In this document: positions 13,032-57,245 of the stretch, piece after piece
Layout: each line of letters starts with the position of its first letter
Numbering within the stretch: the stretch's first letter is position 1
Source of the DNA: Pseudomonas putida
GTDB taxonomy: Bacteria; Pseudomonadota; Gammaproteobacteria; Pseudomonadales; Pseudomonadaceae
Direction: 5' to 3'
Assembly: GCA_041879295.1 (NCBI GenBank)
Contig: CP047152.1
Span: 1,741,501 to 1,805,500 of the forward strand
Length of the DNA: 64,000 nt
The notes under the pieces: model-generated
What the model was told of the DNA's origin: nothing
Database searches by the model: none
The model's input: only the letters and a program-made list of their open reading frames with translations
Program-made: the position numbers and the translations under genes

Positions 13032-13094
13032 GCGTACAACTGTCACCCTAAGTGTGGAGGCGAAAGGGTGCTCTCAGCCCGGTATGGTGAACTC

Positions 13095-30161: not shown

Positions 30162-31603
30162 CAGTGCGCTCCCACAACGACGATCTTGGCGGCCTCTTCA
30201 GCCTGTGCCGGGTTGGCGGCACGTACGGTACGGAATACGTTGTAGGCCATCAGCAGCATGCCGCTGGCGAAGAACGCACCGCCCAGGGCGCGGACGATGT
30301 AGCCAGGGTGGCTGGCCTGCAGGGCTTCGACGAAGGAGTAGGTGAGGGTGCCGTCATCGTTGATGGCGCGCCACATCAGGCCTTGGGTAATGCCGTTGAC
30401 CCACATCGAGGCGATGTACAGCACGGTGCCGATGGTGGCCAGCCAGAAGTGCGCGTTGATCAGGCCAATGCTGTGCATCTGCTCGCGGCCGTAGAGTTTC
30501 GGGATCATGTGGTACACGGCGCCGATCGAGATCATTGCCACCCAGCCGAGGGCGCCGGCGTGGACGTGGCCAATGGTCCAGTCGGTGTAGTGCGACAGTG
30601 AGTTCACGGTCTTGATGGCCATCATCGGGCCTTCGAAGGTGGACATACCGTAGAACGCCAGCGACACCACCAGGAAGCGCAGGATCGGGTCGGTGCGCAG
30701 TTTGTGCCAGGCGCCCGACAGGGTCATCATGCCGTTGATCATGCCGCCCCAGCTTGGCGCCAGCAGGATGATAGACATCACCATGCCCAGCGACTGCGCC
30801 CAGTCAGGCAGGGCGGTGTAGTGCAGGTGGTGCGGGCCAGCCCAGATGTACAGGGTGATCAGCGCCCAGAAGTGCACGATCGACAAGCGATACGAGTAGA
30901 TTGGCCGCTCGGCCTGCTTGGGCACGAAGTAGTACATCATCCCCAGGAAACCGGTGGTGAGGAAGAAGCCCACGGCGTTGTGGCCATACCACCACTGGAT
31001 CATCGCGTCGGTGGCGCCGGAGTAGGCCGAGTACGACTTGAACAGGCTCACCGGCAGCGAGATGTGGTTGACGATGTGCAGCATCGCGGTCACCACGATG
31101 AAGGCGCCGTAGAACCAGTTGCCGACATAGATGTGCTTGGTCTTGCGCTTGACGATGGTGCCGAAGAACACCAGGCCGTAGGTAACCCAGACGATAGCCA
31201 GCAGGATCGCCAGCGGCCACTCGAGCTCGGCGTATTCCTTGGTGGTGGTGTAGCCCATCGGCAGGGTGATCAGCGCGCCGACGATGACGGCTTGCCAACC
31301 CCAGAAGGTGAAGGCGGCCATGCTGTCGGAGATCAGCCGGGTCTGGCAGGTGCGCTGCACCACGTAGTAGCTGGTGCCGAACAGCGCACAGCCCCCGAAG
31401 GCGAAGATCACCAGGTTGGTGTGCAGCGGGCGCAGGCGGCCGAAGCTGGTCCAGGGAAGGTCCAGGTTCAGCTGCGGCCACACCAGCTGCGAGGCGATGA
31501 AGACGCCGAGGCCCATGCCAAGGATCCCCCAGACCACCGTCATGATGGCGAACTGGCGGACGACCTTATAGTTATAAGCAGTCGGACTGATTGCTGTGCT
31601 CAT
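30161..31603 (-). CDS. ccoN1: cbb3-type cytochrome c oxidase catalytic subunit I (first operon)
   Basis: CcoN reduces oxygen at a heme b3/CuB centre and pumps protons; cbb3 enzymes have high oxygen affinity. The 480 residues have about 12 membrane helices. Visible landmarks are [14 protein letters not shown] (low-spin heme His), [18 protein letters not shown] (CuB and cross-link region), [16 protein letters not shown] (CuB His pair) and [18 protein letters not shown] (b3 region). ATG 31603 is supported by the conserved [16 protein letters not shown] start. No consensus Anr box is present upstream; the best match has one mismatch (31657-31670). Confidence 0.97.
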
Positions 31604-31942: not shown

Positions 31943-32063
31943 AAGGGTTGAGTGTTGTGGTGGGGCGGGGGGGAAAGGGTTGAGTGTTGTGGTGGGGCGG
32001 GGGTGTAAGGGTTGAGTGTTGTGGTGGGGCGGGGGGGGAAAGGGTTGAGTGTTGTGGTGGGGC
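31943..32063. repeat. Four-copy 32-base tandem repeat
   Basis: AAGGGTTGAGTGTTGTGGTG followed by GGGCGGGGG starts at 31943, 31975, 32007 and 32040, giving steps of 32, 32 and 33 bases. Copies differ only in the joining GGGGGGATGT or GGGGGGGA bases; the fourth is cut short at GGGGC before the inverted repeat. The plus strand is extremely G-rich with runs of 5-8 G, so G-quadruplex formation is possible. No frame across it looks like a real protein. Confidence 0.9.
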
Positions 32064-32064
32064 A

Positions 32065-32291
32065 GAGATCGAGCGCCGCCCGCGCGGCGCATCGCGAGCT
32101 GCGCTCGCTCCTACGTTTGTTTCGGGCCAATCATTCCTGTGGGATTTGCGCGCGAACGCCTTGGCGCATGTCGCGATTTCGCGTGGTACGGGCCAGGCGG
32201 TCGCGCGCGCCTGGCACAGGAGGGACTGGCCCGAAACAAACGTAGGAGCGAGCGCAGCTCGCGATGCGCCGCGCGGGCGGCGCTCGATCTC
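32065..32291. repeat. Large inverted-repeat element, copy A (perfect 65-base arms)
   Basis: The arm 32065-32129 (GAGATCGAGCGCCGCCCGCG ... TTTCGGGCCA) is the exact reverse complement of 32227-32291. The 97-base centre also has partial complementarity (TTCCTGTG against CACAGGAG), so the whole element can fold into one hairpin. Each arm contains a REP-like core (GTAGGAGCGAGC-GCA-GCTCGC). The same arms and about 80 per cent of the centre recur at 56991-57245. I read it as a REPIN-type element unlike the common REP of this genome. Confidence 0.92.
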
Positions 32292-32335
32292 ACAGGCGCC
32301 AAATCCCTTTCTCTAACAGGCGCCAAATCCCTTTC
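32292..32335. repeat. 20-base direct repeat flanking the inverted repeat
   Basis: ACAGGCGCCAAATCCCTTTC occurs at 32292-32311 and 32316-32335, a 24-base period. It fills the space between the large inverted repeat and the ccoP2 stop. Confidence 0.85.
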
Positions 32336-32342
32336 GGCGAAC

Positions 32343-33284
32343 TCACTGTGCAGTCACAGTCTCGGCCGAACCCTCCCGCGACAGGCTATACACATAAGCC
32401 GCCAGCAAGTGCACCTTGTCATTGCCCTGGATCTCGGCCTGCGCCGGCATTTGCCCCTGACGACCATAACGAATGGTCTGCTGCAGCTGGGCAAAGCTCG
32501 AACCGTAGATGAACGCCTGCGGGTGGGTCAGGTTCGGTGCGCCCATGGCGGGCGTGCCTTTGCCTTCCGGGCCGTGGCAGGCCACGCAGTTGGCAGCAAA
32601 GATCTTCTGCCCGTTCTCGACGTCGGCCTTCGCGCCCTCAGGCAATGTGCGGCCATCGAGTTTGCTGACCACGAATGCAGCCACATCGGCCACGCCCTGG
32701 TCACCGATCACTTCGGCCCAGGCCGGCATCACGCCATGGCGCCCGCCCATGATGGTGGTCTTGATGGTTTCCGGATCGCCACCCCAGCGCCAGTCACTGT
32801 CGGTGAGGTTGGGGAAACCAAAGGCGCCCTTGGCATCGGAACCGTGGCACACCGAGCAGTTTGAGGCAAACAGGCGACTGCCCATTTTCAGCGCCTGCGG
32901 ATCCTTTGCCACTTCTTCCACGGGCATGGCGGCGTATTTGGCGAAGATCGGACCGAACCTGGCATCGGCCTTGTCCATTTCCTTCTGCCATTCGTTGGCG
33001 CCGGTCCAGCCATTTTCATAGCCCGGCAGGATGCCTTTCCAGTTGCCCAGGCCCGGGTAGAGGATCAAATAGCCGACCGAGAACACCAAGGTGCCAACGA
33101 ACAGCCAGAACCACCACTTGGGCAGCGGGTTGTCGTACTCCTCGATGCCGTCGAAGCTATGGCCCATGGTCTCGTCAGTGGTGTTGTTGCTCTGGCCCTT
33201 GCGCGTGGCGAGCAGCAGCCAGGTCAGGCCAATCAGGCTACCGATGGTCAGTACGCTGATGTACGTACTCCAGAACGTGGTCAT
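32343..33284 (-). CDS. ccoP2: cbb3-type cytochrome c oxidase subunit III, diheme (second operon)
   Basis: A second CcoP of 313 residues with two membrane helices and two heme sites (CSVCH, CVACH). It is 12 residues shorter than the first copy, mainly through a missing segment after ILPGY, where the first copy has [17 protein letters not shown]. From about residue 145 on the DNA is nearly the same as in ccoP1, with only scattered differences, which points to gene conversion. ATG 33284 overlaps the ccoQ2 stop by four bases. Confidence 0.95.
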
Positions 33285-33475
33285 TGCCCGTTACTCCTTT
33301 TTGCAGCAGGCTCCTGCCCGGCAGGGGGCAGGCGGTCGTCGACGAAGGGCAGCAGGCGCGCTTCGGCGAAATCACGGTCGCGGCGGCGGTTGAAGACCCA
33401 CAGGGTGAGGCCGATGAAGGCAATCATCACCACCAGGGTGCCCAACCCGCGGATCATGCCGATGTCCATTTCCAT
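33281..33475 (-). CDS. ccoQ2: cbb3 oxidase small subunit CcoQ (second operon)
   Basis: A 64-residue single-helix protein, [20 protein letters not shown] followed by [19 protein letters not shown] 33475 is preceded by AGGTGA and lies six bases after the ccoO2 stop. MDIG at 33469 is an alternative start. Confidence 0.9.
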
Positions 33476-33480
33476 CGCAC

Positions 33481-34089
33481 TCACCTCTTGTTCTTGATCG
33501 CGGTGCCGAGCACCTGCAGGTAGGCGACCAGCGCATCCATCTCGGTCTTGCCCTTGACCGCTTCGCGGGCGCCGGCAATGTCGTCGTCGGTGTACGGCAC
33601 GCCCAGGGTGCGCAGGGTGCGCATCTTGACGTCGGTGTGGCTGTTGTCGACCTGCTGGGCAACCAGCCACGGGTAGGATGGCATCTTCGACTCCGGCACC
33701 ACGTTGCGCGGGTTGTACAGGTGCGCACGGTGCCAGTCGTCCGAGTAGCGGCCACCGACCCGGGCCAGGTCCGGCCCGGTGCGCTTGGAACCCCACAGGA
33801 ACGGGTGGTCCCACACGCTTTCACCGGCCACCGAGTAGTGGCCGTAACGCTCGGTTTCGGCGCGGAACGGGCGGATCATCTGCGAGTGGCAGCCCACGCA
33901 GCCTTCGCGGATGTAGACATCGCGGCCTTCCAGTTGCAGCGCGGTATAGGGCTTCATGCCCTCCACCGGTTTGTTGGTGACGTCCTGGAAGAACAGCGGG
34001 ACGATCTGGGTCAGGCCGCCGATGCTGACGGCAAATACCATCAGCAGGGCCATCAGGCCGACGTTTTTCTCGATGACTTCATGTTTCAT
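33481..34089 (-). CDS. ccoO2: cbb3-type cytochrome c oxidase subunit II, monoheme (second operon)
   Basis: 202 residues with N-terminal helix ([20 protein letters not shown]) and heme site [13 protein letters not shown]. Residues about 60-150 are almost unchanged from ccoO1, while the C-terminal part ([20 protein letters not shown]) differs. Start at ATG 34089 matches ccoO1; the frame extends to 34137 inside the end of ccoN2. Confidence 0.96.
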
Positions 34090-34102
34090 CAGGCGTTTCT
34101 CC

Positions 34103-35527
<1,425 letters not shown>

Positions 35528-35577
35528 GTATGGGTTCCCATCCACGGTTATTTGGCAGGCTTTACAGCGAGGCAAGC

Positions 35578-36270
35578 ATGATTAATGGGCAAAGTGCCGG
35601 TATTGACGGGGATCAATGGGCGAAGGTCGCAAATGTCCCAGGCTTGCGCTGCGATCCTCCGCCGGTTGAAGGTAAAGAGGGCTACAAGGGGTGCCTGATC
35701 CTGGCCCATGGCGCGGGCGCGCCGATGGACAGCGGGTTCATGGACGAAATGGCGCAAAGGCTTGCGGCTCTTGGGGTAGCGGTAGTGCGCTTCGAGTTCC
35801 CGTACATGGCCGAGCGCAGGGTTACCGGTGGCAAGCGGCCGCCTAACCCGCAGAAGGTGTTGCTTGAATGCTGGCGCGAGGTGTACCGGCAAGTGCGACC
35901 TTTGGTCGCGGGCAAGCTGGCCGTGGGTGGCAAGTCCATGGGGGGGCGCATGGCGAGCCTGCTGGCCGACGAACTGGGCGCGGATGCGCTGGTGTGCCTG
36001 GGTTATCCATTCTATGCGGTGGGTAAACCCGAGAAGCCACGGGTAGAGCACTTGGCCGAGTTGAAGACACCGACGTTGATCGTGCAGGGCGAGCGGGATG
36101 CGCTGGGTAACCGCGAGGCGGTGGCGGGGTATGCGTTGTCGCCGGCGATCGAGGTGAGCTGGCTAGTGGCGGGGGACCATGACCTGAAGCCGTTGAAGGC
36201 TTCGGGGTTCAGCCATGAGCAGCATTTGCAGGCGGCGGCTGAACGTGTTGCTGATTTCCTGAAGGATTAG
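35578..36270 (+). CDS. Alpha/beta hydrolase of the KANSL3/Tex30-like family
   Basis: A 230-residue cytosolic protein. The pattern [20 protein letters not shown] near residue 45, the nucleophile elbow [15 protein letters not shown] (Ser in GKSMGG near 125), [15 protein letters not shown] (acid residue) and VAGDHDLKP (His) fit the alpha/beta hydrolase triad. Substrate is unknown. ATG 35578 follows GAGG with a 5-base gap. It is divergent from ccoN2, and the Anr box of that operon lies within its first 13 codons. A longer frame from 35518 has no similarity at its start. Confidence 0.85.
35603..35616 (-). promoter_or_regulatory. Anr (FNR-type) box upstream of the second cco operon
   Basis: TTGAC-GGGG-ATCAA matches the consensus at nine of ten positions. 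It lies 76-89 bases before ccoN2 on the minus strand and inside the 5' coding sequence of the divergent hydrolase gene. Confidence 0.8.
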
Positions 36271-36278
36271 TGCTGGAT

Positions 36279-36368
36279 TCTTCGCGGGTAAACCCGCTCC
36301 CACAGGATGGTCACAGGGTCCGAGGACGGTGATACGCCTGAGGGAGCGGGTTCACTCGCGAAGAGGCC
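36279..36368. repeat. Inverted REP pair (REPIN) between hydrolase and ppnP
   Basis: TTCTTCGCGGGTAAACCCGC near 36279 and its inverse GGGAGCGGGTTCACTCGCGA near 36342 lie about 38 bases apart and can pair. The element fills the gap between two convergent genes and could act as a transcript barrier. Confidence 0.85.
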
Positions 36369-36383
36369 GGCACAGGCCGACGC

Positions 36384-36668
36384 TTAGTCGCGGTACTCGC
36401 ACAGGTAGGCCGTATCCACCGCCACTTTCAGCTGGAACTTGCTGTCGGCGGCAACATTGAACTTGTCGCCTGCCTTGAAGGTTTCCCAGTTGTCGCTACC
36501 TGGCAGTTTCACGGTCAGCGCGCCCGATACCACATGCATGATCTCGCGCTTGGCAGTGCCGAATTCGTATTCGCCCGGAGCCATGACGCCGACAGTGGCC
36601 GGGCCTTCTTCGCCCGAGAATGCGATCGACTTGACGGTGCCGTTGAAGTACTCGTTGACCTGGAACAT
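36384..36668 (-). CDS. ppnP: Pyrimidine/purine nucleoside phosphorylase
   Basis: A 94-residue cupin-fold enzyme that cleaves nucleosides with phosphate to base and ribose-1-phosphate. The sequence [40 protein letters not shown] and [17 protein letters not shown] is the PpnP (DUF1255/YaiE) pattern at full length. ATG 36668 gives the family size; longer frames upstream are out of keeping. Confidence 0.95.
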
Positions 36669-36742
36669 GGGCGACTCCTGAAAAGAGGTGATGAAAAAGG
36701 GCTGGCCAGTATGCCCAAGCCCACAGGCCTCGTCATCTGCTT

Positions 36743-37294
36743 TCAGGGGCTGTTGGCGGGCAGGGTCAACGGTAATAGCCGCGCCGTGTTGCGCGCATCT
36801 TCCAGGGCCCTGTGCTGTTGCCCGCAAAAGTGCATGCCGGCCAGTTGCAGGGCGCCGTTCAGGCCGGTGGGGCGCTGCAGATGGCGGGCCTTGGCAAAGC
36901 GTTGCTTGAGGTTGATGTGCGGCAATGTGCGCAGCAGGCTGTCGAGGCTGTGCTGCTGCCACTCCTGGTGCAATTGCTGGCGGTCGTAGTCGCCCCAGCT
37001 GACCCAGGCCTGAAGCTGCCCGCGGTGGTGCCCCAGCCAGCGCTCGAAGCTTGCCCACACCTCGCGAAACGGCGCGGCGTTGTCCACGTCGGCCTGGCTG
37101 ATGTGGGTCAGCTCACGGCAGAACGGGGTAAGCTGCGGCCGCCGCCGTGGCTTTACAAAACGCTGGAAATGGTCGACCTCGCGGCCTTCGCGGGTAACCA
37201 GGCTTGCGCCAATTTCAATGACTTCCATCTCTGTGACCGGCCACCCACCATCGTCGGTGGTGGCTTCCAGGTCGATCACCAACCAATGGCCCAT
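36743..37294 (-). CDS. DEDDh-family 3'-5' exonuclease (ERI-1/KapD-like)
   Basis: The 183 residues show the four acidic residues of the DEDD exonuclease fold: D8 and E10 in [10 protein letters not shown], an Asp in [12 protein letters not shown] (third), and the His-x4-Asp in [15 protein letters not shown] (DEDDh). The block [11 protein letters not shown] matches ERI-1-like enzymes. It probably trims RNA or DNA 3' ends; its natural substrate is not known. ATG 37294 has the usual start [12 protein letters not shown]. Confidence 0.88.
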
Positions 37295-37456
37295 ACCAGG
37301 CTCCCTTGCAGATCCTGCTAGAGCGTAGCCAATGTCTGGGCATACGGCATCCTATGGCATTTTGCCGCCTGCTTTGGCACAAAGAGCAGACGCCAGTAGT
37401 TGTGCCGCCCCTGGAAAACGCCTAGCTTAGGCGCATACAGGCATAAACCGTGATGA

Positions 37457-38266
37457 GTGTCCGTCTTGACTCCAGTGCCCGGCCTCAAGGCCTTGTCCAC
37501 CCTGATGCTGCTGGCCGTGTTCTGGTTGGCGGCACCGGTATGGGCTGGCGAAGCGGTCGAAGTGAAGATTGGCGCGGCCCATTTCCCGCCTTACACGGTG
37601 CGCCCCGAGCAAGGCGCCGATACCGGTTTGCTGCCGCAGTTGGTCAATGCACTCAACCGGGCGCAGCAGCACTATCACTTCGTTCTTGTGCCTACGTCTA
37701 TCCAGCGGCGCTTCGGTGACTTCCAGCAGGGCCGCACCGACATGGCAATTTTCGAGAACCCACAATGGGGCTGGGAGCAAATTGCTCATCAGGCCGTGGA
37801 CATGGGCCTGGAAGATGCCGAAGTGTTCGTTGCCCGTCAGGCAAATGGCAATGATCCACATTACTTCGATGACCTGCGCGGTAAACGCCTGGCATTGTTC
37901 AACGGCTACCACTACGCGTTCGCCGGCTTCAACGCTGACCCGAATTACCTGCGCAAGACATACAACGCGACCCTGACCTATTCCCACGACAGCAACCTGC
38001 TGATGGTGCAGGCCGGCCGCGCCGATATCGCCCTGGTCACGCGCTCCTACCTCAGCGATTTCCTGGCACGCAACCCGGCGAGCAGGGCTCAGCTGGTGCC
38101 TTCGCAGCGCATTGACCAGGTCTATCACCACTACGCCTTGCTGCGCCCAGAGGCGCCTATTGACGAGCAGTCGTTCGCTGCCCTGCTGCGTGGCCTGCGT
38201 GACAGTGGTGAGCTGGCGCGGATCTTCGACCCCTACCGCATCACAGTCAGCACGCGCAGGCCTTGA
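37457..38266 (+). CDS. Periplasmic solute-binding protein, family 3
   Basis: A 269-residue secreted protein with signal sequence ending LAAPVWAGE, then VKIGAAHFPPYTVRPEQGAD and GLLPQLVNALNRAQQHYHF, the opening of bacterial extracellular solute-binding proteins of family 3. The lobe hinge and second lobe appear complete (GKRLALFNGYHYAFAG; QAGRADIALVTRSYLSDF). The GTG at 37457 is assumed; I see no good ribosome site, and a shorter form from ATG 37505 is less likely because it shortens the signal peptide. No transporter partner is adjacent. Its place next to pvdS is usual in P. putida. Confidence 0.8.
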   Translation: MSVLTPVPGLKALSTLMLLAVFWLAAPVWAGEAVEVKIGAAHFPPYTVRPEQGADTGLLPQLVNALNRAQQHYHFVLVPTSIQRRFGDFQQGRTDMAIFENPQWGWEQIAHQAVDMGLEDAEVFVARQANGNDPHYFDDLRGKRLALFNGYHYAFAGFNADPNYLRKTYNATLTYSHDSNLLMVQAGRADIALVTRSYLSDFLARNPASRAQLVPSQRIDQVYHHYALLRPEAPIDEQSFAALLRGLRDSGELARIFDPYRITVSTRRP

Positions 38267-38306
38267 TTCCCGCCCGATGGCATCGTAGATGTTGTCGAAG
38301 AGTAAC

Positions 38307-38837
38307 TCAGGCTTGCCGGTTGGCGGTCTTGCGGCAATGCACCAATGCATCGCGAATCATGAAGTTGACCAAGGTCGGTGACACCCCCAGTTCCTTCGCA
38401 ATGTCCTTCTGCGGTACGCCATGCAGGCGGTACATCTCGAACGCATAGCGGGTACGTTGCGGCAGCTCGTTCAGCGCCTGGGCAATGTCGTCCAGTGCGG
38501 CAAGGTTGATATGGGTCGCTTCGGGCGAGGCATTCTGGATAACCACATTCAGGCCTTCCTCCTCGCTGCCGGAGTACTTCAGCTCCATTGTCTGCTTGCG
38601 GTAGTGGTCGATCGCAAGGTTGCGCACGATCTGGAACAGGTAGCTCAGCTGCGCCTTGAATGACGAGGTGATCTGCGGGGCAGCACCGAGCCGGAAGAAG
38701 GCGTCCTGCACCACATCCTCGGCGCGGGAGCGGCAGCCAGTGATGCGGGCAGCGATCTTGACCAGGATGTTGCGGTTGTCGACGAAGGCCTGCAGTAATG
38801 GTGAATCGCACTTACTTGTGGATAGTTGTTCCGCCAT
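38307..38837 (-). CDS. pvdS: ECF sigma factor for pyoverdine synthesis (PvdS/PfrI)
   Basis: An iron-starvation sigma factor that directs RNA polymerase to pyoverdine genes. The 176 residues have the ECF arrangement: region 2 (FVDNRNILVKIAARITG, then RAEDVVQDAFFRLG and LSYLFQIVRNLAIDHYRK) and region 4 (LNELPQRTRYAFEMYRLHGV then KDIAKELGVSPTLVNFMIRD). ATG 38837 with AAGG upstream matches PvdS; a longer frame starts within the promoter region. A Fur-box-like site lies 82-100 bases upstream, so expression should be repressed by iron. Confidence 0.95.
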   Translation of the reverse strand: MAEQLSTSKCDSPLLQAFVDNRNILVKIAARITGCRSRAEDVVQDAFFRLGAAPQITSSFKAQLSYLFQIVRNLAIDHYRKQTMELKYSGSEEEGLNVVIQNASPEATHINLAALDDIAQALNELPQRTRYAFEMYRLHGVPQKDIAKELGVSPTLVNFMIRDALVHCRKTANRQA

Positions 38838-38918
38838 GGAAATCACCTTGTCACAGAGAGGAAAGGAGGCACCCAAAGCTGGGAAGCTTCCTACGACGTG
38901 CGACAAATTATGTAGAAT

Positions 38919-38937
38919 GATAATGATTGTCAAATGC
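38919..38937 (-). promoter_or_regulatory. Fur-box-like site between pvdS and pvdL
   Basis: GATAATGATTGTCAAATGC matches the first half of the Fur consensus (GATAATGAT) exactly and the second half loosely. It lies 82 bases upstream of pvdS, where iron repression by Fur is known for this gene in related species. Confidence 0.7.
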
Positions 38938-38942
38938 GAAAC

Positions 38943-38966
38943 TAAATTATTATTGCGTGTTGCTGT
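38943..38966 (+). promoter_or_regulatory. Candidate PvdS-dependent (iron-starvation) promoter for pvdL
   Basis: TAAAT at 38943-38947 is followed after 16 bases by TGT at 38964-38966, close to the IS-box form TAAAT-N16-CGT used by PvdS. It lies about 180 bases upstream of pvdL. The second element has one mismatch. Confidence 0.45.
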
Positions 38967-39145
38967 CCCAAGGGGGCATGCCCCCAGGTATGCCTCCAGC
39001 CTTCACGCAGCCCCACACCCTCGCCCCCGCTAATTTCTGCCCCCGTCCATCCGTTCCCCTGTGTACATCCCCGGTCGCCGCTCGCTGCCCGCCGCTGTTC
39101 GCGGCGCAGTCGGCACGCCCTAACAGACACTGGCAGGAACACCCC

Positions 39146-48100: not shown

Positions 48101-51100
48101 GCTCAAACCCTGGCCATCGGCCTGGACGTGGAGCAGACCCGACAGCTGTTGCAACTGGCCCCGGCGGCTTACCACACCCAGGTCAACGACCTGCTGTTGA
48201 CCGCACTGGCGCGGGCCTTGTGCCGCTGGAGCGGCGATGAAGAAGTGCTGGTGCAGCTCGAAGGCCATGGCCGTGACGGGTTGTTCGAAGACATGGACCT
48301 GACCCGCAGCGTCGGCTGGTTCACCAATGCCTACCCACTGAGCCTGCGTCCGCTGCCAGGTGAAGACGACGCGGCGCGGGCCGGTTCGATCAAGCGCATC
48401 AAGGAACAACTGCGCCATGTACCGCACAAGGGCCTGGGCTACGGCGTACTGCGCTACCTGGCGGATGCCGCCGGGCGCGAGCAGATGGCGGCCTTGCCGC
48501 AGGCGCGCATCACCTTCAACTACCTGGGCCAGTTCGACCAGCAGTTCGACAGTGCGGCCTTGTTCCAGCCCCTGGAAGCCCCGGCCGGGTTGGCGCATGA
48601 TCTCGATGCGCCGTTGCCCAACTGGTTGAGCGTCGATGGCCAGGTGTATGGCGGTGCTCTGCAACTGCGCTGGACCTTCAGCGCCGAGCGCTACGACCAG
48701 AAGACTATCGCGGGTCTGGCTGAGGGCTATCGTCAGGAGCTGCTGGCGCTGGTCGCGCATTGTCTGGCCGATGGCAATGGCAGCTTCACCCCATCGGACT
48801 TCCCGCTGGCGCACCTGACTCAGGAGCAGATCGACGCATTGCCGGTCCCGGCCGCGCAGATCGAGGACGTTTACCCGCTGACGCCGATGCAGGAAGGCAT
48901 GCTGTTGCACACCCTGCTGGAGCCGGGCACTGGCCTCTACTACATGCAGGACCGCTACCGCATCAACAGCGCGCTCGACCCCGAGCGTTTCGCCCAGGCC
49001 TGGCAGGCCGTGCTGGCGCGCCACGAAGCGTTGCGCGCCTCGTTCAGCTGGAACAGCGGCGAGGCGATGCTGCAGATCATCCACAAGCCGGGCAACCTGG
49101 CGGTGGACTACCAGGACTGGCGCGGCCTGGCCGACGATGCCCAGGAGCAGCGCCTGCAGGCCCTGCACAAGCAGGAGCGCGAGGCCGGCTTTGCCTTGCT
49201 CAGCGAGGCACCGTTCCATCTGCGCCTGGTGCGCGTGGCCGATGAACGCTACTGGTTCATGATGAGCAACCACCACATCCTTATCGATGCCTGGTGCCGC
49301 TCGCTGTTGATGAACGATTTCTTCGAGGTCTACCAGGCCCTTGGCGAAGGCCGTCAGGCCCAACTGCCGGTGCCGCCGCGTTACCGCGATTACATCGGTT
49401 GGCTGCAGCGCCAGGGCCTGGACGACGCACGCGCCTGGTGGCAGGCCAACCTGGCCGGCTTCGAACGTGCCACAGCCATCCCGAGCGACCGCCCGCTGCG
49501 CCATGACCACGCCGGTAGCGGCATGGTCGTCGGCGATTGTTATACCCGCCTTGAGGTGAATGATGGCGTGCGTCTGCGCGAGCTGGCCCAGGCCCATCAG
49601 CTCACCGTCAACACTTTCGCCCAGGCGGCCTGGGCCCTGGTGCTGTCGCGCTACAGCGGCGACCGCGACGTGGCCTTTGGCGTAACCGTGGCCGGGCGCC
49701 CGGTGAGCATGCCGCAGATGCAGCGCACCGTCGGCCTGTTCATCAACAGCGTGGCCCTGCGCGTGCAGTTGCCCGCGGCGGGTGAGCGTTGCAGCGTACG
49801 CCAGTGGCTGCAGGGCCTGCTGCAAAGCAACATGGAGCTGCGCGAGTACGAATACCTGCCGCTGGTGGCGATCCAGGCGTGCAGCGAGTTGCCCAAGGGC
49901 CAGCCGCTGTTCGACAGCCTGTTCGTGTTCGAGAATGCGCCGGTTGAAACCGCCGTGCTCGATCACGCCCAGCACCTGAACGCCAGCTCCGACTCGGGCC
50001 GTACCCACACCAACTTCCCGCTGACGGCGGTGTGTTACCCGGGTGATGACCTGGGCCTGCACCTGTCGTTTGACCAGCGCTACTTCGACTACCCGACCGT
50101 CGAGCGCCTGCTGGCCGAATTCAAGCGCCTGCTGCTGGCGCTGGTACAAGGCTTTGAAGGGGAGGTGAGCGAGCTACCGCTGTCGAGCGCCCAGGAGCAA
50201 GGCTTCCTGCTGGAGGACTGCAACCGGACCGAGCGGGTTTATCCACTTGAACAGAGCTACATCGCGCAGTTCGAAGCGCAGGTCGTGGCGCATCCACAGC
50301 GTACCGTGGCCCGCTGCCTGGAGGCATCCTATGACTACGCCAGGCTGAACCTGGCGGCCAACCGCCTGGGCCATGCGTTGGTGGCTGCCGGAGTCTGCGT
50401 GGACCAGCCAGTGGCACTGCTTGCCGAACGTGGGTTGCCGCTGCTGGGCATGATTGTCGGCAGCTTCAAGGCCGGCGCCGGCTACCTGCCGCTGGACCCG
50501 GGCCTGCCGGCGGCGCGCCTGCAAAGCATCATCCAGCTCAGCCGCACGCCAGTGTTGGTGTGCAGCGCGGCCTGCGCCGAGCAGGGACGGCAGTTGCTCG
50601 GTGAGCTGGAGGCTGCGCTGCGGCCGCAACTGCTGGTCTGGGAAGACGTCCAGGCCAACCCGATCGCAAGCCACAACCCGGGTATCCACAGTGGCCCGGA
50701 CAACCTCGCCTACGTGATCTACACCTCAGGCTCGACCGGTCTGCCGAAAGGGGTGATGGTCGAGCAGCGCGGCATGCTCAACAATCAGCTGAGCAAGGTG
50801 CCTTACCTGGCGCTGAGCGAGCAGGACGTGATCGCCCAGACCGCCTCGCAAAGCTTCGACATCTCGGTCTGGCAGTTCCTGGCTGCGCCGCTGTTCGGCG
50901 CCAAGGTAGAGATCGTGCCAAATGCCATCGCCCACGACCCGCAAGGCCTGCTGGCGCACGTGCAGGCCACCGGCATCACCGTGCTGGAGAGCGTGCCGTC
51001 CCTGATCCAGGGCATGCTGGCCAGCGACCACCAGGCCCTCGACGGCCTACGCTGGATGCTGCCGACCGGCGAGGCCATGTCACCGGAGCTGGCGGCGCAG

Positions 51101-52099
51101 TGGCTGCAGCGCTACCCGCAGATCGGCCTGGTCAATGCCTATGGCCCGGCGGAGTGCTCGGATGACGTGGCGTTCTTCCGCGTCGATTCCGCCTCGACCC
51201 AAGGCAGCTACCTGCCCATCGGTACGCCAACGGACAACAACCGCCTGTACCTGTTCGGCGAGGAACAGAAGCTGGTGCCGCTGGGGGCGGTGGGCGAACT
51301 GTGCGTGGCGGGTACGGGTGTAGGCCGTGGCTACGTCGGTGACCCGGTGCGCACGGCACTGGCGTTCATTCCTCACCCTTACGGGGCACCGGGAGAGCGC
51401 CTGTACCGTACCGGTGACCTGGCGCGGCAACGCCCGGACGGCGTGCTGGAATATGTCGGGCGCATCGACCACCAGGTGAAGATTCGCGGCTATCGCATTG
51501 AGCTGGGCGAAATCGAGGCCCGGCTGCATGAGCAAGCGGAAATTCGCGATGCCGCCGTGGCGGTGCAGGAGGGCGTGAACGGCAAGTATCTGGTTGGCTA
51601 CCTGGTGGCGCACCAAGGCGTCAGTGCCGATGCCGCGTTGCTGGAGCAGGTCAAGCAACGACTGCGTGCCGAGTTGCCGGAGTACATGGTGCCGTTGCAT
51701 TGGGGCTGGTTCGACAGCTTGCCGCACAACGCCAACGGCAAGCTCGACCGCAAGGCCCTGCCAGCCATCGACATCGGCGTGCAGCATAGCCAGGCCTATC
51801 AGGCGCCACGTAACGACCTGGAGGATGTGTTGGCGGGCATCTGGGCCGATGTGCTCAAAGCCGAGCGGGTGGGGGTGTACGACAACTTCTTCGAGCTGGG
51901 CGGCCATTCATTGCTGGCCACGCAGATCGCTTCGCGGGTGCAGAAGCAGCTACAGCTGAGCGTGCCGCTGCGGGCGATGTTCGAGTGCAGCACGGTGGAG
52001 GCGTTGGCCGAGTATGTACAGGGGCTGCAGGGCAGTGCGCTGGATGATGACAAGGTCGACCGGCTCAGTGACCTGATGGCGGAGCTGGAGGGGCTGTGA
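39146..52099 (+). CDS. pvdL: Pyoverdine chromophore non-ribosomal peptide synthetase PvdL
   Basis: PvdL starts pyoverdine assembly. The 4317 residues hold: acyl-AMP ligase ([13 protein letters not shown] near 171) and carrier (GGNS near 612); condensation (HHIVADG near 800), adenylation ([11 protein letters not shown] near 1273) and carrier (GGHS near 1654); condensation (HHIVTEG near 1850), adenylation ([11 protein letters not shown] near 2328) and carrier (GGDS near 2723); epimerisation (HHLVVDG near 2904); condensation (HHILIDAW near 3373), adenylation ([11 protein letters not shown] near 3858) and final carrier (GGHS near 4249). There is no thioesterase, as expected for the first synthetase, which acylates and joins Glu, D-Tyr and Dab in known systems. 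ATG 39146 (AGGA upstream) starts MTDAFELPL; the frame opens earlier in the promoter region. The frame is unbroken for 13 kb. Confidence 0.96.
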
Positions 52100-52104
52100 T
52101 GGGC

Positions 52105-52123
52105 AGGGGCGCTTGGCGCCCCT
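52105..52123 (+). terminator. Hairpin after pvdL
   Basis: AGGGGCGC pairs perfectly with GCGCCCCT around TTG, five bases after the pvdL stop. Only a short TTT follows, so termination may be partial. Confidence 0.55.
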
Positions 52124-52145
52124 TTCAATGGTCACGGTACTAAGA

Positions 52146-52350
52146 CTATGTGAGAAGAGACGTCGCGATCACCGCATAGAACAAGCCAGTGAGACCATGC
52201 CGGCAGTCACTGGTTTTTCCGCCAGAGAGGAGGAAGCGCAGCGGTGTCACGTTGGCGTCGCAGAGCATGTGGATTTTGGTTGTCAGGCCACTACGACTGG
52301 GTTCTAGAGCGTAATCGGCAGGCTCATCAGGCGGCCTTTTTCGAGCGCCA
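52146..52350 (-). pseudogene. Remnant of an IS5-family transposase
   Basis: The minus strand reads RPPDEPADYALEPSRSGLTT followed by KIHMLCDANVTPLRFLLSGG and KTSDCRHG, ending at TAG 52146. This is the internal block of IS5-type DDE transposases (G-G-L-T-T-K-I-H-x-L-x-D, then P-L-R-F-L-L-x-G-G). Both ends are missing, no terminal repeats are seen, and no start codon precedes it. It lies between pvdL and the RHS gene and marks a place where foreign DNA has entered. Confidence 0.7.
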
Positions 52351-52495
52351 GGTGACGAACTGCTGCCCGATCTCAGGAAAATTGAAAGTCATTCACGGTT
52401 TACCTACCATTTTTACCAGTTCCCCCTATCTTTGCGAGGGATTCAATATGGGTAACCGCGTATCCTATTTACTCCGGAGATATGGAGCTACCAGC

Positions 52496-53452
52496 ATGGA
52501 AAGTTCATCAAACTCGTCTTTCTTCTATCAGGGGAGGTCCCTTGTTTCGATGATGCAGGGGAACCAGCTTCGCTCCGTTTTTCGGACGCCTGATATGCCC
52601 TTGGCCGAGCAACGAGTCGATGGTGGTGAGGCATACCATCTGTTCTCGACAGACGGCAAGGCCTCGGTGCTGTCAGTGCAGGAAACTGATAAAGGGGAAC
52701 AGCACGCATACTCTGTATACGGCCACGATCCGAAATTACCGTCAACGCTTACGTTACTAGGCTTCAATGGCGAAGCTTTCACTCTGGTTTCGGGTTGCTA
52801 TGCACTAGGCAATGGCTATCGATCATTCAATCCCACTTTGATGCGGTTCACCTCGCCTGATAGGCTGAGCCCGTTTGGAAAGGGAGGGGTAAATGCGTAC
52901 TGTTATTGCAGTTGCGATCCTGTCAATAATGTGGACCCCAGCGGCCGGATGATGCGCAGGATAAGCCCTGTTTTGATACCGAAGCCGGTCAGTATCATAA
53001 TTCCCAAGTCGGTCATTACAATCAATTCCATAAATGAGCCTGATATATTCTCTAAAGTCATCAGTTATCTAGACCTGCGTAGTGCGGCGGCACTTTCAAG
53101 GGTCAATAAACATGTTTACAGTATGACCAGGGCGGCCTTTTCTAAGATGGAGGTTTCGCTGAGTGATCCTGAAAAATTGCTCGCTGCCTCGCAAAAGGGT
53201 ACCGTCGGGCCGGGTGTTGGCCAATCCTATGAACTTTTGGTAAAAAGGCCAGATATAAAACTTCCTCCCCAGTCAAAGCATGATGGTGCGAGGGAGCAAC
53301 TTATACGAGATATTGATGCCGCCAGAAAATTTCGCGCGGCTCAACGAAGCAGGTTATCTTCGTTCGACTCGTCGTCGGGATCAGACTCCGAGGATGAGCT
53401 CCAACGCATTAGTCAAGGAATACGCAAAGCGATGAATGGCCCGCAGTTGTAG
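52496..53452 (+). CDS. RHS repeat-associated core protein with a C-terminal F-box-like segment
   Basis: A 318-residue protein. Residues about 65-165 hold the RHS core end (SVYGHDPKLPSTLTLLGFNG, LGNGYRSFNPTLMRFTSPDR, LSPFGKGGVNAYCYC, DPVNNVDPSG), the part that normally encloses and releases a variable toxin. After DPSGR the sequence switches to a unique tail. Residues near 178-215 read NEPDIFSKVISYLDLRSAAA and LSRVNKHVYSMTRA, like an F-box (L-P-x-E-I-x-x-x-I-L-x-Y-L-D). I choose ATG 52496 (GGAG eight bases before; MESSSNSSFFYQGR is usual for short P. putida RHS proteins); ATG 52448 also has a site. The tail is AT-richer than the neighbours, suggesting transfer. Whether it is secreted is unknown. 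Confidence 0.82.
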   Translation: MESSSNSSFFYQGRSLVSMMQGNQLRSVFRTPDMPLAEQRVDGGEAYHLFSTDGKASVLSVQETDKGEQHAYSVYGHDPKLPSTLTLLGFNGEAFTLVSGCYALGNGYRSFNPTLMRFTSPDRLSPFGKGGVNAYCYCSCDPVNNVDPSGRMMRRISPVLIPKPVSIIIPKSVITINSINEPDIFSKVISYLDLRSAAALSRVNKHVYSMTRAAFSKMEVSLSDPEKLLAASQKGTVGPGVGQSYELLVKRPDIKLPPQSKHDGAREQLIRDIDAARKFRAAQRSRLSSFDSSSGSDSEDELQRISQGIRKAMNGPQL

Positions 53453-53561
53453 GAGCAACCGCGGGTTTGGTCGGGATGCCTGTATCGATGAGTCTGTGGT
53501 TGAGGATTCAACCGCGAATAGGTCCGTACACGTTCAGACACTCTCCCCGACGATCTTACAG

Positions 53562-54320
53562 TCAGCGCTTGCCCAGAATCTTCCCAAGCATCTCCGGCCG
53601 TGGTGCCCCTTGCTGGCTTTGCAGGTTGCCTTGCTCATCCTGATAGAAAATGGCTGGGGTCGCCTGCAACCCCATCTCTTCCATCAACGCCATGTTCGCC
53701 GCCAGCTTCTGTTGCACAGCCTCTGGCACCTGTTCCAGCGCCTTCAGGGTGCTGGCCTTGCCGGCCTTCTCGTGCTGTTGCAGTGCCTTGGCCGGGTCTT
53801 TCGCCGCCAGCAGCGCCGCCGACTTGCCCGGGCTGTCTTCGCGGATGATGCCGACCATGATATGGCGCAACTGCACCTTGCCCGACTCCACCCAGGGCCG
53901 CGCCTGTTCCCAGAACATGTTGCAGTACGGGCAGTTCGGGTCGCTGAACAGGTACACCTTGCGCGGCGCATCGGCCTTGCCGTCGGCGATCCACGCGGTC
54001 TTTTCCATTTTCGCCCAGATTTCCTTGCTCATCGGCGCGTATACCAGCTTTTGCAGCGGCTCGGCGCTCAGGTCCTTGCCCTGTTCGTCGAACAGGCTGC
54101 CGACCAGCACGTGCTTGCCGTCGGCGGTCAGGTAGAGGGCCAGGGCGTTGTTCTGGTACTCGGCGGCATAACCGCGCAGGCCGTTGGGCGCATCGAAGCT
54201 GCCCTTGATCACGGCGCCCTTGGCTTGCAGTTGCTGAACCGCCTTGGGCAGTTCTTCGGCCTGCAGGGCAGGGGAGGCCAGCAGGGCCAGGGACAGGGGC
54301 AGCAGTGCAGTCAATCGCAT
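53562..54320 (-). CDS. dsbG: Thiol:disulfide interchange protein DsbG
   Basis: A periplasmic disulfide isomerase/chaperone of 252 residues. A signal peptide (MRLTALLPLSLALLASPALQ then AEELP) is followed by an N-terminal dimerisation domain and a thioredoxin fold with the active site NCPYC near residue 125 and the cis-proline segment TPAIFYQDEQG. ATG 54320 matches the signal peptide; the frame is open 11 codons further. It is the last gene of a dsbD-tlpA-dsbG operon and receives electrons from DsbD in known systems. Confidence 0.93.
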   Translation of the reverse strand: MRLTALLPLSLALLASPALQAEELPKAVQQLQAKGAVIKGSFDAPNGLRGYAAEYQNNALALYLTADGKHVLVGSLFDEQGKDLSAEPLQKLVYAPMSKEIWAKMEKTAWIADGKADAPRKVYLFSDPNCPYCNMFWEQARPWVESGKVQLRHIMVGIIREDSPGKSAALLAAKDPAKALQQHEKAGKASTLKALEQVPEAVQQKLAANMALMEEMGLQATPAIFYQDEQGNLQSQQGAPRPEMLGKILGKR

Positions 54321-54321
54321 G

Positions 54322-55158
54322 TCAGTTTCCTTGTGCGGCAGGGGCGGGCGCAATGGCCCGGTCGAAAGGTTCCAGGGCGTGGCGCAGGCTGGCCCGGGAC
54401 AGTTCGCCCAGGTGGCTGCCGACCAGACGCCCGTTGGCGTCGTAGAACAGGGTGGTGGGCAAGGCCATGGAGCCGACGCGCTGGGCCAGCAGGCCGGTGC
54501 CGTCGAACAGCACGTGTGTCAGGCTCAGGCCGGTGGTGGCGAGGAAGGTGCTGACGTTTTCCGGGGTCTCTCCCTGATTGACGAACAGGAAGGTCACGTG
54601 CGGGTAAGCGCTTTGTGCCTGTTGCAGCACGGGCATCTCACGCCGACACGGTGGGCACCAGGTGGCCCAGATGTTGATGACCAGCGGCTTGCCGCGGTAG
54701 CTGTGCAATGCCACGGCCTGGCCGTCGGCGTTGCGCAGGCTCAGGTCGGGCAGCTCGGTGCCTTTGCTGTAGAGGTGGCCGCCGAGGCTGGCCAGGCCCC
54801 AGAACAGTGCCCCGCTGAACAGCGCCCAGCCTAGCGGGCGGCGCAGGCCGGGGTGGCGCCAGCCCTGCCACAGGGCTCCGAGCACGATGCCGGCAAGGCC
54901 CGACCAGAACAGGAAGCCGCCATCGCGAATGTCGATGATTTGCAGCGGGTCGTCCTGATACATCGGCCAGTAGGCCAGCACGAAGCCGGCGCGGGCACAC
55001 AGCAGGCCGATCAGGAACAGGTTGAACAGCGCCGATTCCGGGCTCTCGCCGCCACGTCGGGCAACCCACCAGCCGACAATGCTGGCAATCACCAGGGCGG
55101 TGAGCATCAGCAGGTGGTTGAGGGCCATGGTCAGGGGCCCGAGTGTTATGGTCAGCAT
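54322..55158 (-). CDS. Membrane-anchored thioredoxin (TlpA-like) with Lgt-like N-terminal region
   Basis: 278 residues in two parts. The N-terminal ~130 residues have four or so membrane helices with ALFNLFLIGLLCARAGFVLA and DIRDGGFLFWSGLAG, reminiscent of the prolipoprotein diacylglyceryl transferase fold but too short to be that enzyme. The C-terminal part is a TlpA/ResA thioredoxin with active site WATWCPPCRREMPVL near 175 and cis-Pro in MALPTTLFYD. It probably reduces or guards thiols in the periplasm using electrons from DsbD, whose gene overlaps it by one base at 55158. Its stop is one base from the dsbG start, so translation is coupled. Confidence 0.85.
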   Translation of the reverse strand: MLTITLGPLTMALNHLLMLTALVIASIVGWWVARRGGESPESALFNLFLIGLLCARAGFVLAYWPMYQDDPLQIIDIRDGGFLFWSGLAGIVLGALWQGWRHPGLRRPLGWALFSGALFWGLASLGGHLYSKGTELPDLSLRNADGQAVALHSYRGKPLVINIWATWCPPCRREMPVLQQAQSAYPHVTFLFVNQGETPENVSTFLATTGLSLTHVLFDGTGLLAQRVGSMALPTTLFYDANGRLVGSHLGELSRASLRHALEPFDRAIAPAPAAQGN

Positions 55159-56873
55159 CAGCCTTGGCTCCTGGTCTGGGCCCAGTGTTGCTGGAACGCT
55201 GCTGCATCAACTTCACCGGTGATGCGCCGCGCGCGTCGTTCTTCGCCTTCCGGGCCGATCCAGATGATGCTAGGCGGGCCGGGTACCTGGTAGCGCTGCA
55301 GCAGGGCCTTGCTGGCCGGGCTGTCGGCGGTCACGTCCAGGCGCAGCAGGTGCACGTTGGCCAGGCCGGCCTGCACGTCGCTGCGGGCGAACACCTGTTT
55401 TTCCATGACCTTGCACGACACGCACCAATCGGCATAGTAGTCGAGCATCACCCACTGGCCGCGGGCTTTGGCCGCATCCAGCTCACGTTGCAGGTCTTCG
55501 GGGCGGCTGACGGTGACGAAACTGTCTTCGGCATGCAGGCCAGCGGCCGCTGTGCTGTCCCCCCCCGTGAACGGGCGTAGCGGCTGCCAGAGGTCGTCGC
55601 CGCCGGCTGCCGCACCGACCAGCAACAGGCCGCCCCACAGGGCGCCCAACAGCGGTACGGCGCGCAACGCCGGCAGGCGCTGCAGGCCCGGCCAGGCGGC
55701 CCAGGCCAGGGCGATCAGCCAGGCGCCGCTCAGTGCCAGCAGCAAGGTAGCGGGCAGCAGGCTGCGCACGGTGTACAGCGCCATGGCCAGGAACACGAAG
55801 CCGAACACACCCTTGACCCGGTTCATCCATGCACCTGGGCGCGGCAGATAACGGTTGCCCAGGGTTACCAGCAACAGCATCGGCACGCCCATGCCCAGGC
55901 CGAGGCTGAACAGCACCAAGGCCCCTTGCAGCACGTCGCCGCTCTGGGCGATGTACAGCAGTGCGCCGGCCAGTGGTGCGGTCATGCACGGACCGAGCAG
56001 CAGGCCAGACAACGCGCCCAGCAACGCCGCGCCATACAGGTTGCCGCCACGGGTACCTTGCCCGGCGCGGTCCAGGCGGTCGCGCACGACGGCGGGTAAT
56101 TGCAGTTCAAAGGCACCGAACATCGGCAGCGCCAGCAACACGAACAGGCCCGCCAGGCTGCCCAGCAGCCAGGGTTGCTGCAGCCAGGCCTGAAGGCTGG
56201 CGCCCAGCAGCGCGGCAACCACACCCAGGGCGGCGTACACCAGCGCCATGCTCAGCACATACACCCCCGCCAGCAGCCAGCCGCGCCGGGCACTGGCGCC
56301 ATTGCCCAGCACCAGCCCGGCAAGGATCGGCAGCATCGGCAGCGAGCAGGGGGTGAAGGCCAGCAGGAGTCCAAGGCCGAAGAACGCCAGCAGGCTCCAG
56401 GCCAGGTGGCCTTGCTGAAGGTTACTGGCCAAGGCCTGGTCGCTGGCTTGCTCGGCGCCTGGCGCCACACTGCCGCCCAGGTCGATCAGCGTGGTTTGCG
56501 GGGGGTAGCACAGGCCGGCGTCGGCGCAGCCCTGCCAGCCCAGGCGCAATTGGCCCTGGGCAGTGGCCGGCAGCAGCAGTTCGAGCTGGTCGCGGTACAC
56601 CGCGCTGTCACCGAAGAACTCGTCATGGTGGTTGAGCGCTGGCGGCAGCTGCGGGTGTTGCTCTGCAGGCAGGCCGTCGAACTTCAGGCGCTTCTGGTAC
56701 AGGTAGTACCCCTGCTTGATCTGGAAGTACAGGCGCATCTGGCCGTCGGCCTGGCGGTCGTGGGTGAGCACGAAGGCTTGGTCAACCGGCAGGAAGTCTG
56801 GTTTCACGTCGAACGGGTTGGCTTGCAACGGGCCGGCCAGTAGTAGTGTGAGGAAGAGCAGGAGAACGCGCAT
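55158..56873 (-). CDS. dsbD: Thiol:disulfide interchange protein DsbD
   Basis: DsbD carries electrons from cytosolic thioredoxin across the inner membrane to periplasmic DsbC/DsbG and TlpA-type proteins. The 571 residues show all three parts: signal peptide and immunoglobulin-like alpha domain with the cysteine pair in CADAGLCYPP near 115-121; a membrane beta domain with eight helices and its cysteines in FTPCSLPMLPIL and LGPCMTAPLAG; and a thioredoxin-like gamma domain with YADWCVSCKVMEKQ near 480. All six redox cysteines are present. The run of nine C at 55559-55567 does not break the frame. Confidence 0.95.
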   Translation of the reverse strand: MRVLLLFLTLLLAGPLQANPFDVKPDFLPVDQAFVLTHDRQADGQMRLYFQIKQGYYLYQKRLKFDGLPAEQHPQLPPALNHHDEFFGDSAVYRDQLELLLPATAQGQLRLGWQGCADAGLCYPPQTTLIDLGGSVAPGAEQASDQALASNLQQGHLAWSLLAFFGLGLLLAFTPCSLPMLPILAGLVLGNGASARRGWLLAGVYVLSMALVYAALGVVAALLGASLQAWLQQPWLLGSLAGLFVLLALPMFGAFELQLPAVVRDRLDRAGQGTRGGNLYGAALLGALSGLLLGPCMTAPLAGALLYIAQSGDVLQGALVLFSLGLGMGVPMLLLVTLGNRYLPRPGAWMNRVKGVFGFVFLAMALYTVRSLLPATLLLALSGAWLIALAWAAWPGLQRLPALRAVPLLGALWGGLLLVGAAAGGDDLWQPLRPFTGGDSTAAAGLHAEDSFVTVSRPEDLQRELDAAKARGQWVMLDYYADWCVSCKVMEKQVFARSDVQAGLANVHLLRLDVTADSPASKALLQRYQVPGPPSIIWIGPEGEERRARRITGEVDAAAFQQHWAQTRSQG

Positions 56874-56990
56874 GTCTTCGCCTTGGCAAATCGGGGAATG
56901 GGGCCATGCTGGCTGGGGTTGATTAAATGAAGGTTAACGCTGGTTTTTGGGCTGGGAGAGCATAAGGGCTTACAGGGGTTCGTCGCGGCA

Positions 56991-57245
56991 TTTTCAGCGC
57001 CTGGGGGATCGAGCGCCGCCCGCGCGGCGCATCGCGAGCTGCGCTCGCTCCTACGTTTGTTTCGGGCCAGTTATTTCTGTGAAATTTGCGCGCGTACGCC
57101 TTGGCGCATGGCGCGATATCGCGTCGTACAAACAAAGCGGTCGCGCGCGCCTGTAACAGGCGTTACTGGCCAAAAACAAACGTAGGAGCGAGCGCAGCTC
57201 GCGATGCGCCGCGCGGGCGGCGCTCGATCCCCCAGGCGCTGAAAA
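56991..57245. repeat. Large inverted-repeat element, copy B (perfect 72-base arms)
   Basis: The arm 56991-57062 (TTTTCAGCGCCTGGGGGATC ... TTTGTTT) is the exact reverse complement of 57174-57245. Pairing continues with three mismatches through GGCCAGT. From GATCGAGCGCC inward the arms are the same sequence as copy A at 32065-32291, and the centres share long stretches (CGCCTTGGCGCATG, GCGGTCGCGCGCGCCTG). Copy B is longer by an outer CAGCGCCTGGGG extension. It sits between divergent dsbD and the molybdenum hydroxylase operon. Confidence 0.93.

Follow-up and report, generated by a model that had tools for sequence, protein, structure and literature searches.

What put giant, perfectly paired inverted repeats between the genes of a bacterial chromosome? 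The question is raised by a 64,000-nt stretch of Pseudomonas putida DNA (contig CP047152.1, positions 1,741,501 to 1,805,500; hereafter the window), which carries two such palindromes, each with a repetitive extragenic palindromic (REP) sequence in either arm. It has long been asked whether REPs are non-autonomous partners of REP-associated tyrosine transposases (RAYTs), and whether RAYTs are still mobile or have been domesticated. We find that the 227-bp repeats are probably non-autonomous copies, similar to miniature inverted-repeat transposable elements (MITEs), of a small transposon that encodes a RAYT (Y1/HUH) and has ends joining into a single long palindrome. This is the best reading because RAYT-bearing units at two unrelated loci in relatives (L063 and L164) share similarity that starts and stops at the palindrome ends.

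A first-pass annotation of the window had described two inverted repeats, 32065-32291 with exact 65-nt arms and 56991-57245 with exact 72-nt arms, and both coordinates and lengths are correct (Table 1). When mismatches are allowed, the arms reach 97 nt at 91% (copy 1) and 113 nt at 88% complementarity (copy 2). Folded as single-stranded DNA, copy 1 yields -139.5 kcal/mol (z -24.6) and copy 2 yields -146.5 kcal/mol (z -22.6), with 0 of 200 shuffles as stable as either. Each arm joins a GTAG-type REP, the head of which the annotation had recognized, to a second GC hairpin. The order from the outside inward, with module borders of the copy 1 left arm set by comparison among copies and relatives, is a degenerate outer module of ~36-49 nt, a GAGATC edge, the outer hairpin GCGCCGCCCGCGCGGCGC, ATCGC, the REP, TTTGTTTCGGGCCA and the centre. 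The GTAG head faces the centre, which is itself imperfectly palindromic and, as had been proposed, more than a spacer; as the annotation noted, another core (GTAGGAGCGGGCTTGCCCGCGAA and similar) is present in the REPs at 26018, 28299 and 36279. The degenerate outer module, GGtGcttGcCgTGag.TtTttGGcGCCtGtGAGATC, was defined on 84 flanks of 42 isolated copies, left from 80 arm pairs after 13 dropped out because they lacked the anchor motif or sufficient length and 25 of the other 67 were excluded as clustered; what had appeared to be symmetry of the flanks is actually this module. The element has no coding capacity of its own: only mechanical open reading frames (ORFs) of 110-271 aa cross it, none independently supported.

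In relatives, the same palindrome holds a transposase gene. The RAYT at L164 (Pseudomonas sp. CM27) has element positions 2-99 on its upstream and 136-226 on its downstream side, and at L063 (G145) positions 10-87 lie upstream and 160-223 downstream. One half was found at three further loci: positions 1-138 upstream plus a 19-nt end downstream at L062 (G081), positions 1-97 upstream plus the hairpin end downstream at L146 (P. vlassakiae), and positions 141-223 downstream at L068 (G117). The gene-less palindromes thus have the same ends as a transposase-bearing element. The RAYTs of L063, L146 and L164 show ~87% identity among themselves, but no match is seen between their flanks. A single block, 83% identical over 750 alignment columns, is common to L063 and L164 and has as its borders the palindrome ends, GAGCGCC on one side and CTCGATC on the other. 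In the comparison with L146 the block extends ~12 nt further out at the left and breaks off shortly after the gene, since most of the right half of L146 has been lost. The complete gene-bearing units (L063, L164) carry a GGAT REP body and the window's palindromes a GAGC body; a gene-bearing form with the GAGC body can be pieced together from the left half in G081 and the right half in G117.

The gene inside the L063 palindrome matches PF01797 (Y1_Tnp), which makes it very improbable that the repeats are MITEs of a DDE insertion sequence unrelated to RAYTs, an origin that their long inverted repeats, high copy number and lack of coding capacity would otherwise suit. Such an origin is also disfavored by the target sites, where no direct duplication was apparent in the copies read, an inspection made by eye without a systematic test. 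Palindromes are hard to assemble, and the annotation had raised an assembly artefact as a source of the arm identity; we reject this explanation as next to impossible, since independent genomes, several with one chromosome contig, show the same structures. Presence elsewhere, on which the annotation had also made its case depend, is established: an element match at E <= 0.001 occurs in 44 of 199 Pseudomonas genomes, many of these matches being weak.

The count of two copies given by the annotation falls far short: the genome has about 100, so the family is, as the annotation suspected, widely spread. Searched genome-wide with <=3 mismatches allowed, a 29-nt arm pattern gave 103 matches in forward and 102 in reverse orientation, versus 0 + 0 for the reversed control; the copy number is an estimate from these arm matches, with 80 pairs examined. 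An initial BLAST search returned at least 130 matches on both strands and undercounts the family, because only 40 of 149 candidates were scored and copy 2 was missed. We surveyed arms in 60 fetched stretches plus the window, selected around places from the BLAST and pattern searches, and defined a pair as two inward-facing arms within 400 nt. The survey held 182 arms, of which 160 form 80 inward-facing pairs and 22 are unpaired, and the gap between paired arms is 123 nt in 59 of the 80 pairs.

Are these simply ordinary REP pairs, of the type of bacterial interspersed mosaic elements (BIMEs) or of REP doublets forming hairpins (REPINs), that happen to face tail to tail and are spread by any RAYT, including the genome's own? 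The arm does contain a GTAG REP of the typical sort, dimers facing tail to tail around a structured spacer are recorded in P. putida and P. entomophila (PMC3733652; the papers cited by PMC number were available in part, and statements about them cover those parts), and both in the window copies and in the paired arms surveyed two inverted REPs are able to fold as one hairpin. We consider this explanation unlikely on three grounds. The REPIN standard that we took from PMC3116915 and PMC3733652 places GTRG heads at the outer ends with a short spacer between, whereas here 160 of 182 arms pair inward with a gap that is mostly fixed at 123 nt; the annotation's term REPIN-like therefore does not apply in its usual sense, and the pairs are tail to tail in the terms of PMC3733652. 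Exact GTAGGAGCGAGC-NNN-GCTCGCGA occurs 99 + 99 times in the genome (198 sites), near the 205 arm matches, and most such REPs must therefore lie in the giant scaffold. Finally, the one Y1_Tnp match in the window's genome (G000; C1:5551486, L031) is a 162-aa RAYT of a sister clade, flanked by ordinary GTGGGAGCGGG REPs, and is disfavored as the mover of the palindromes.

Some copies stand in tandem clusters with spacings of 328, 372 or 416 bp, and these cluster spacings differ by 44 bp. By eye, ~44-bp tandem repeats made of the outer-hairpin end plus flanking DNA were seen in copy flanks (e.g. L009, L015, L019, L023), and tandem arrays of flanking DNA adjoin several copies besides copy 1. A compact form, the outer hairpin alone, occurs exactly at 5 places and with <=1 mismatch at 14, some of these within full elements. 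We also noted a second scaffold type at L235 (G000 C1:1570200-1574100), a tandem cluster in 238-bp steps whose REPs have the loop TTC and whose inner border reads TTGCAACAAAT, features also present in the elements of P. faucium and Pseudomonas sp. GM84. At L236 (G000 C1:1638233-1638584), three units in 107-bp steps have a REP running straight into centre-like sequence, that is, arms without the outer hairpin. At L240 (G000 C1:1941146-1941638) the arms are ~430 nt apart instead of 123, with something of ~300 bp inside or beside the copy.

The palindrome is tied to one lineage of RAYTs. Best element matches below 1e-80 occur in 8 of the 199 genomes (G000, G045, G065, G081, G117, G134, G145, G163), and the five genomes with a RAYT >=76% identical to that of G045 (P0001), namely G045, G065, G081, G117 and G134, are all among those eight. 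The relative in G145 stands at 66%, and those in G000 and G163 only at 60-62%. Further RAYT loci were the best 80 from an additional scan; after 28 of 159 loci were removed as repeats of the same gene, 131 distinct loci remained, and a tree was built from 129, two shorter than 120 residues being excluded. The scaffold motif lies <=650 bp from 16 of the 131 loci, with REP bodies GAGC (7), GGAT (5), GGGC (2), TGGC (1) and AGGC (1), and wherever both arms were recovered the stem type is the same on both. In one clade (support 97/92) 13 of the 17 RAYTs have the motif beside them, versus 3 of the 112 outside it; on the tree 7 changes account for the label "no scaffold", and 0 of 500 shuffles were as low. 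The two GGGC rows do not cluster on the tree. In a pattern search of 27 genomes, 25 had matches (G072 and G103 had none); among the matches listed, G127, G190 and G201 have mostly GGAT, G189 a TGGC-type body and G057 two bodies. The REP body varies between species and the outer hairpin is constant.

The annotation had expected a linked RAYT-type transposase, and this expectation holds in relatives, with the gene inside or beside the palindrome, and fails in the window's genome: the Y1_Tnp search found no RAYT of the scaffold-linked clade there, its single match belonging to another clade with other REPs. Since the genome has no matching RAYT, and so no cognate of the kind that REPINs have, the family looks orphaned.

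Within the window's genome the two arms of a copy are partly homogenized. Three of the 80 pairs, with odd spacing, were excluded and several copies with one broken arm were retained; in the resulting 77 pairs, arms of the same copy differ at 5.60 of 67 positions on average versus 6.21 when arms are randomly dealt (p 0.0015), and among 44 copies >20 kb apart we counted 6.02 differences within and 7.13 between copies (p 0.0007), p values that are optimistic because the copies are related but were treated as independent. The same variant is present in both arms at 59 sites (35.9 expected). The effect is plainest for the REP loop triplet, whose only possible pairing partner is the opposite arm: 8 copies carry the same non-consensus triplet in both arms (0.68 expected; 0 of 20,000 permutations reach it), and in 14 copies the triplet differs between arms. 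Across five other genomes the REP body is identical in both arms for 40 of 47 pairs among the matches listed, a count made by hand from a pattern search that demanded an exact outer hairpin. An inserted loop base is shared by both arms of two copies in P. faucium (G201), where two other pairs differ in the loop.

Such covariation, together with the very stable fold, could also speak for a selected host function, with the palindrome serving as a transcription terminator, an mRNA-stabilizing hairpin or a supercoiling or protein-binding site and mobility being secondary. We judge this rather unlikely. Selection is not needed for arm symmetry, because template switching inside the hairpin would give the same result. 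The gene context also counts against it: by a rough ORF-based rule, 23 of the 80 pairs lie between convergent, 32 between co-directional and 13 between divergent genes (68 classifiable, 12 unclassed), and copy 2 itself sits between divergent genes. Some orthologous intergenic slots are occupied in several species by one form or another of the palindrome, as a host function would lead one to expect, but several close relatives are without the element at both window sites.

The site comparison bears this out, several loci having ended at a contig edge before the site was reached. At the copy 2 site (dsbD|oxidoreductase), G045, G065 and G077 are without the element, G057 and G104 have only the compact hairpin, G072 is nearly empty and G134 has a partial form. 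At the copy 1 site (ccoP|ccoN), G045 has the same element, G145 and G163 have the scaffold with a GGAT..ATCC body, G134 has a short form and G104 only the compact hairpin; others have different REPs or a plain terminator. No clean insertion junction or precise empty site was found at these two sites among the relatives compared, because the intergenic DNA is too diverged. At these sites the slots persist while their content turns over. At another slot, which we take to be mnmC|asnB, Pseudomonas sp. GM84 has the element plus a RAYT and the window's genome the element alone, which speaks for descent from a RAYT transposon.

Several observations weigh against a RAYT transposon as the source of the repeats. 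No transposition event was observed. Both halves surround the gene at only 2 loci; the RAYT stands between two whole elements at L065, L141 and L144 and has a whole element on one side at L072, L127, L142 and L143. The strict motif is absent beside 4 of the 17 clade members (L066, L069, L146, L150), although BLAST detected element parts at L069 and L146, and the scaffold lies near three RAYTs outside the clade (L064, L092, L096). By comparison of ~1.0-2.7 kb of flanking DNA (on one side only for L062, L066 and L146), the 17 clade members form 10 clusters, yet six of them occupy one shared locus, presumably rpsA|ihfB, five in one orientation and that of G117 in the opposite one, so part of the clade was inherited in place. 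At the corresponding gap in the window's genome (L340, G000 ~C1:4272300-4273200), occupied by the RAYT in relatives, ordinary GTAGGAGCGGGTTCACCCGCG REPs stand in a tandem array, and no RAYT remnant was found there by tblastn or blastn, which would fit loss of the gene at this locus as well as its never having been present. Finally, the two arms are unequal in body or loop in 7 of the 47 listed pairs, four of them in the stem (two in G190, two in G127).

Among the three scaffold-linked RAYTs outside the clade, L064 has the body AGGC, L096 TGGC and L092 GGGC, and L064 and L096 belong to one five-member subclade; these loci possibly represent a second capture of the scaffold. The G117 unit (L068) is inverted relative to the same neighbors in L065, L072, L084 and L141, as recombination between inverted arms would produce.

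We nevertheless favor descent from a RAYT transposon, although the reverse order, in which the gene was captured by the palindrome, may also apply. The RAYT would recognize the REP hairpin on single-stranded DNA and would cut at a CT dinucleotide, the conserved element edge reading GAT-CT-C. This edge is compatible, by analogy, with the E. coli RAYT, which binds single-stranded REP hairpins, requires the GTAG motif and cuts CT 5' or 3' of the REP (PMC8266576). Full and gene-less copies may be mobilized alike, the gene-less ones in trans, and the arms would correct each other through hairpin or template-switch copying. The lineage of the window's genome may once have had the RAYT and later lost it. 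A more far-reaching proposal, which we put forward only tentatively and with more doubt than confidence, is that the RAYT transposon is still mobile with its gene in the palindrome loop; that a modular scaffold of outer hairpin, inner border and centre swaps REP heads to match RAYTs; and that the ~100 RAYT-less palindromes of the window's genome are kept symmetric by arm-to-arm copying and exchanged as cassettes at fixed intergenic slots.

Similar structures are already known from a 2013 survey (Di Nocera et al. 2013, PMC3733652), which uses a single sentence and a figure to describe TIRtrons, or "double inverted repeats", next to ORF 607 of P. putida and 4255 of P. fluorescens, and speaks of "hundreds of these bizarre structures" in both species. 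Like the present family, TIRtrons have a RAYT-type gene flanked by long inverted repeats that contain a degenerate GTAG-1 unit and an unrelated hairpin, a likeness drawn by description, not by sequence, of the terminal inverted repeats at ORFs 607 and 4255. A RAYT-like gene between arms of a GTAG unit plus extra hairpin is found at L063, L065, L141, L144 and L164, that is, in relatives; the arrangement does not occur in the window's genome. Relative to the available part of that survey, the present family adds the pairing of gene-in-palindrome with gene-less forms, the RAYT clade, the exchange of bodies and the arm covariation. Among the papers listed in searches on TIRtrons and on RAYTs, MITEs and REPINs in Pseudomonas, which left most subscription papers outside, we found none that describes this palindrome in a gene-bearing and a gene-less form.

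Other known systems share single features with the family. REP class PF18 of P. extremaustralis (GTAGGAGCGAGCyyGCTCGCGA), which has its own RAYT (Nunvar et al. 2013, PMC3686654), has the same GTAG head and GAGC..GCTC stem as the GTAGGAGCGAGC-type arm REP; by description it is set apart by a loop of two pyrimidines where the loop here is usually GCA, and the accessible text mentions no outer hairpin or tail-to-tail palindrome. SBW25 REPINs (Bertels and Rainey 2011, PMC3116915) are likewise inverted REP pairs that fold to a hairpin and are extragenic, RAYT-linked and present in many copies, but their invariant 16-mers form the left and right ends, with 71 bp between first residues (GI type), and they are classed head-head by PMC3733652, whereas here the heads face inward, mostly 123 nt apart, and each REP has a second hairpin module on its outer side. 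RAYT/REP units (Nunvar et al. 2010, PMC2817692) have a RAYT gene between two inverted REPs and are the proposed parent of non-autonomous elements, BIMEs being proposed as the non-autonomous partners of RAYTs. In that study orthologous rayt genes keep their genomic position, whereas the 17 clade members here form 10 flank clusters, and the ends here are a >200-nt palindrome. The same paper gives the P. entomophila Pent1 REP TGTAGGAGCGGATTCATCCGCGAT, the body of which equals our GGAT type, and the REP body GGATTCATCC for P. entomophila. The R0 and R2 repeats of SBW25 (Silby et al. 2009, PMC2718517) are also intergenic inverted-repeat families proposed as MITEs of same-ended elements; they are set apart by description, at 89 and 110 bp with inverted repeats of 24 and 43 bp.

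With a RAYT enclosed by a palindrome of the type that also occurs in ~100 gene-less copies, the family offers a natural autonomous/non-autonomous pair for testing. Modular REP heads with mostly compensated arms offer a readable record of transposase-target coevolution, and the arm symmetry provides a system for studying how one palindrome arm is corrected by the other.

Table 1. Positions in the window of the two giant palindromes, their parts and the flanking ORFs.
Feature	Position	Strand	Note
Copy 1, giant palindrome, 227 bp	32065..32291	.	Core as matched genome-wide
Copy 1, left exact arm, 65 nt	32065..32129	.	GAGATC edge, outer GC hairpin, inverted REP and inner TTTGTTTCGGGCCA
Copy 1, left-arm outer hairpin module	32073..32090	.	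GCGCCGCCCGCGCGGCGC; also met across species
Copy 1, left-arm REP	32091..32114	-	GTAG head toward centre
Copy 1, centre	32130..32226	.	Imperfect palindrome; region holding the RAYT gene in some relatives
Copy 1, right exact arm, 65 nt	32227..32291	.	
Copy 1, right-arm REP	32242..32265	+	GTAG head toward centre
Copy 1, right-arm outer hairpin module	32266..32283	.	GCGCCGCGCGGGCGGCGC; also met across species
32-bp tandem array	31943..32063	.	Immediately outside copy 1 left arm
Copy 2, giant palindrome	56991..57245	.	Exact arms extend into outer AGCGCCTGG module
Copy 2, left exact arm, 72 nt	56991..57062	.	
Copy 2, left-arm REP	57031..57054	-	Head inward
Copy 2, right exact arm, 72 nt	57174..57245	.	
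Copy 2, right-arm REP	57182..57205	+	Head inward
ORF, 480 aa, low side of copy 1	30161..31603	-	Presumably ccoN-like
ORF, 313 aa, high side of copy 1	32343..33284	-	Presumably ccoP-like
ORF, 571 aa, low side of copy 2	55158..56873	-	Presumably DsbD-like
ORF, 943 aa, high side of copy 2	57445..60276	+	Presumably molybdopterin-type oxidoreductase-like

Elsewhere in the window, two structured RNAs were identified on the + strand. Positions 8643-8739 match the bacterial small SRP RNA (RF00169), and positions 12897-13050 match a C4 antisense RNA with its a1/b1 target region (Rfam RF01695, RF03163), which we take to be a phage-type immunity regulator.

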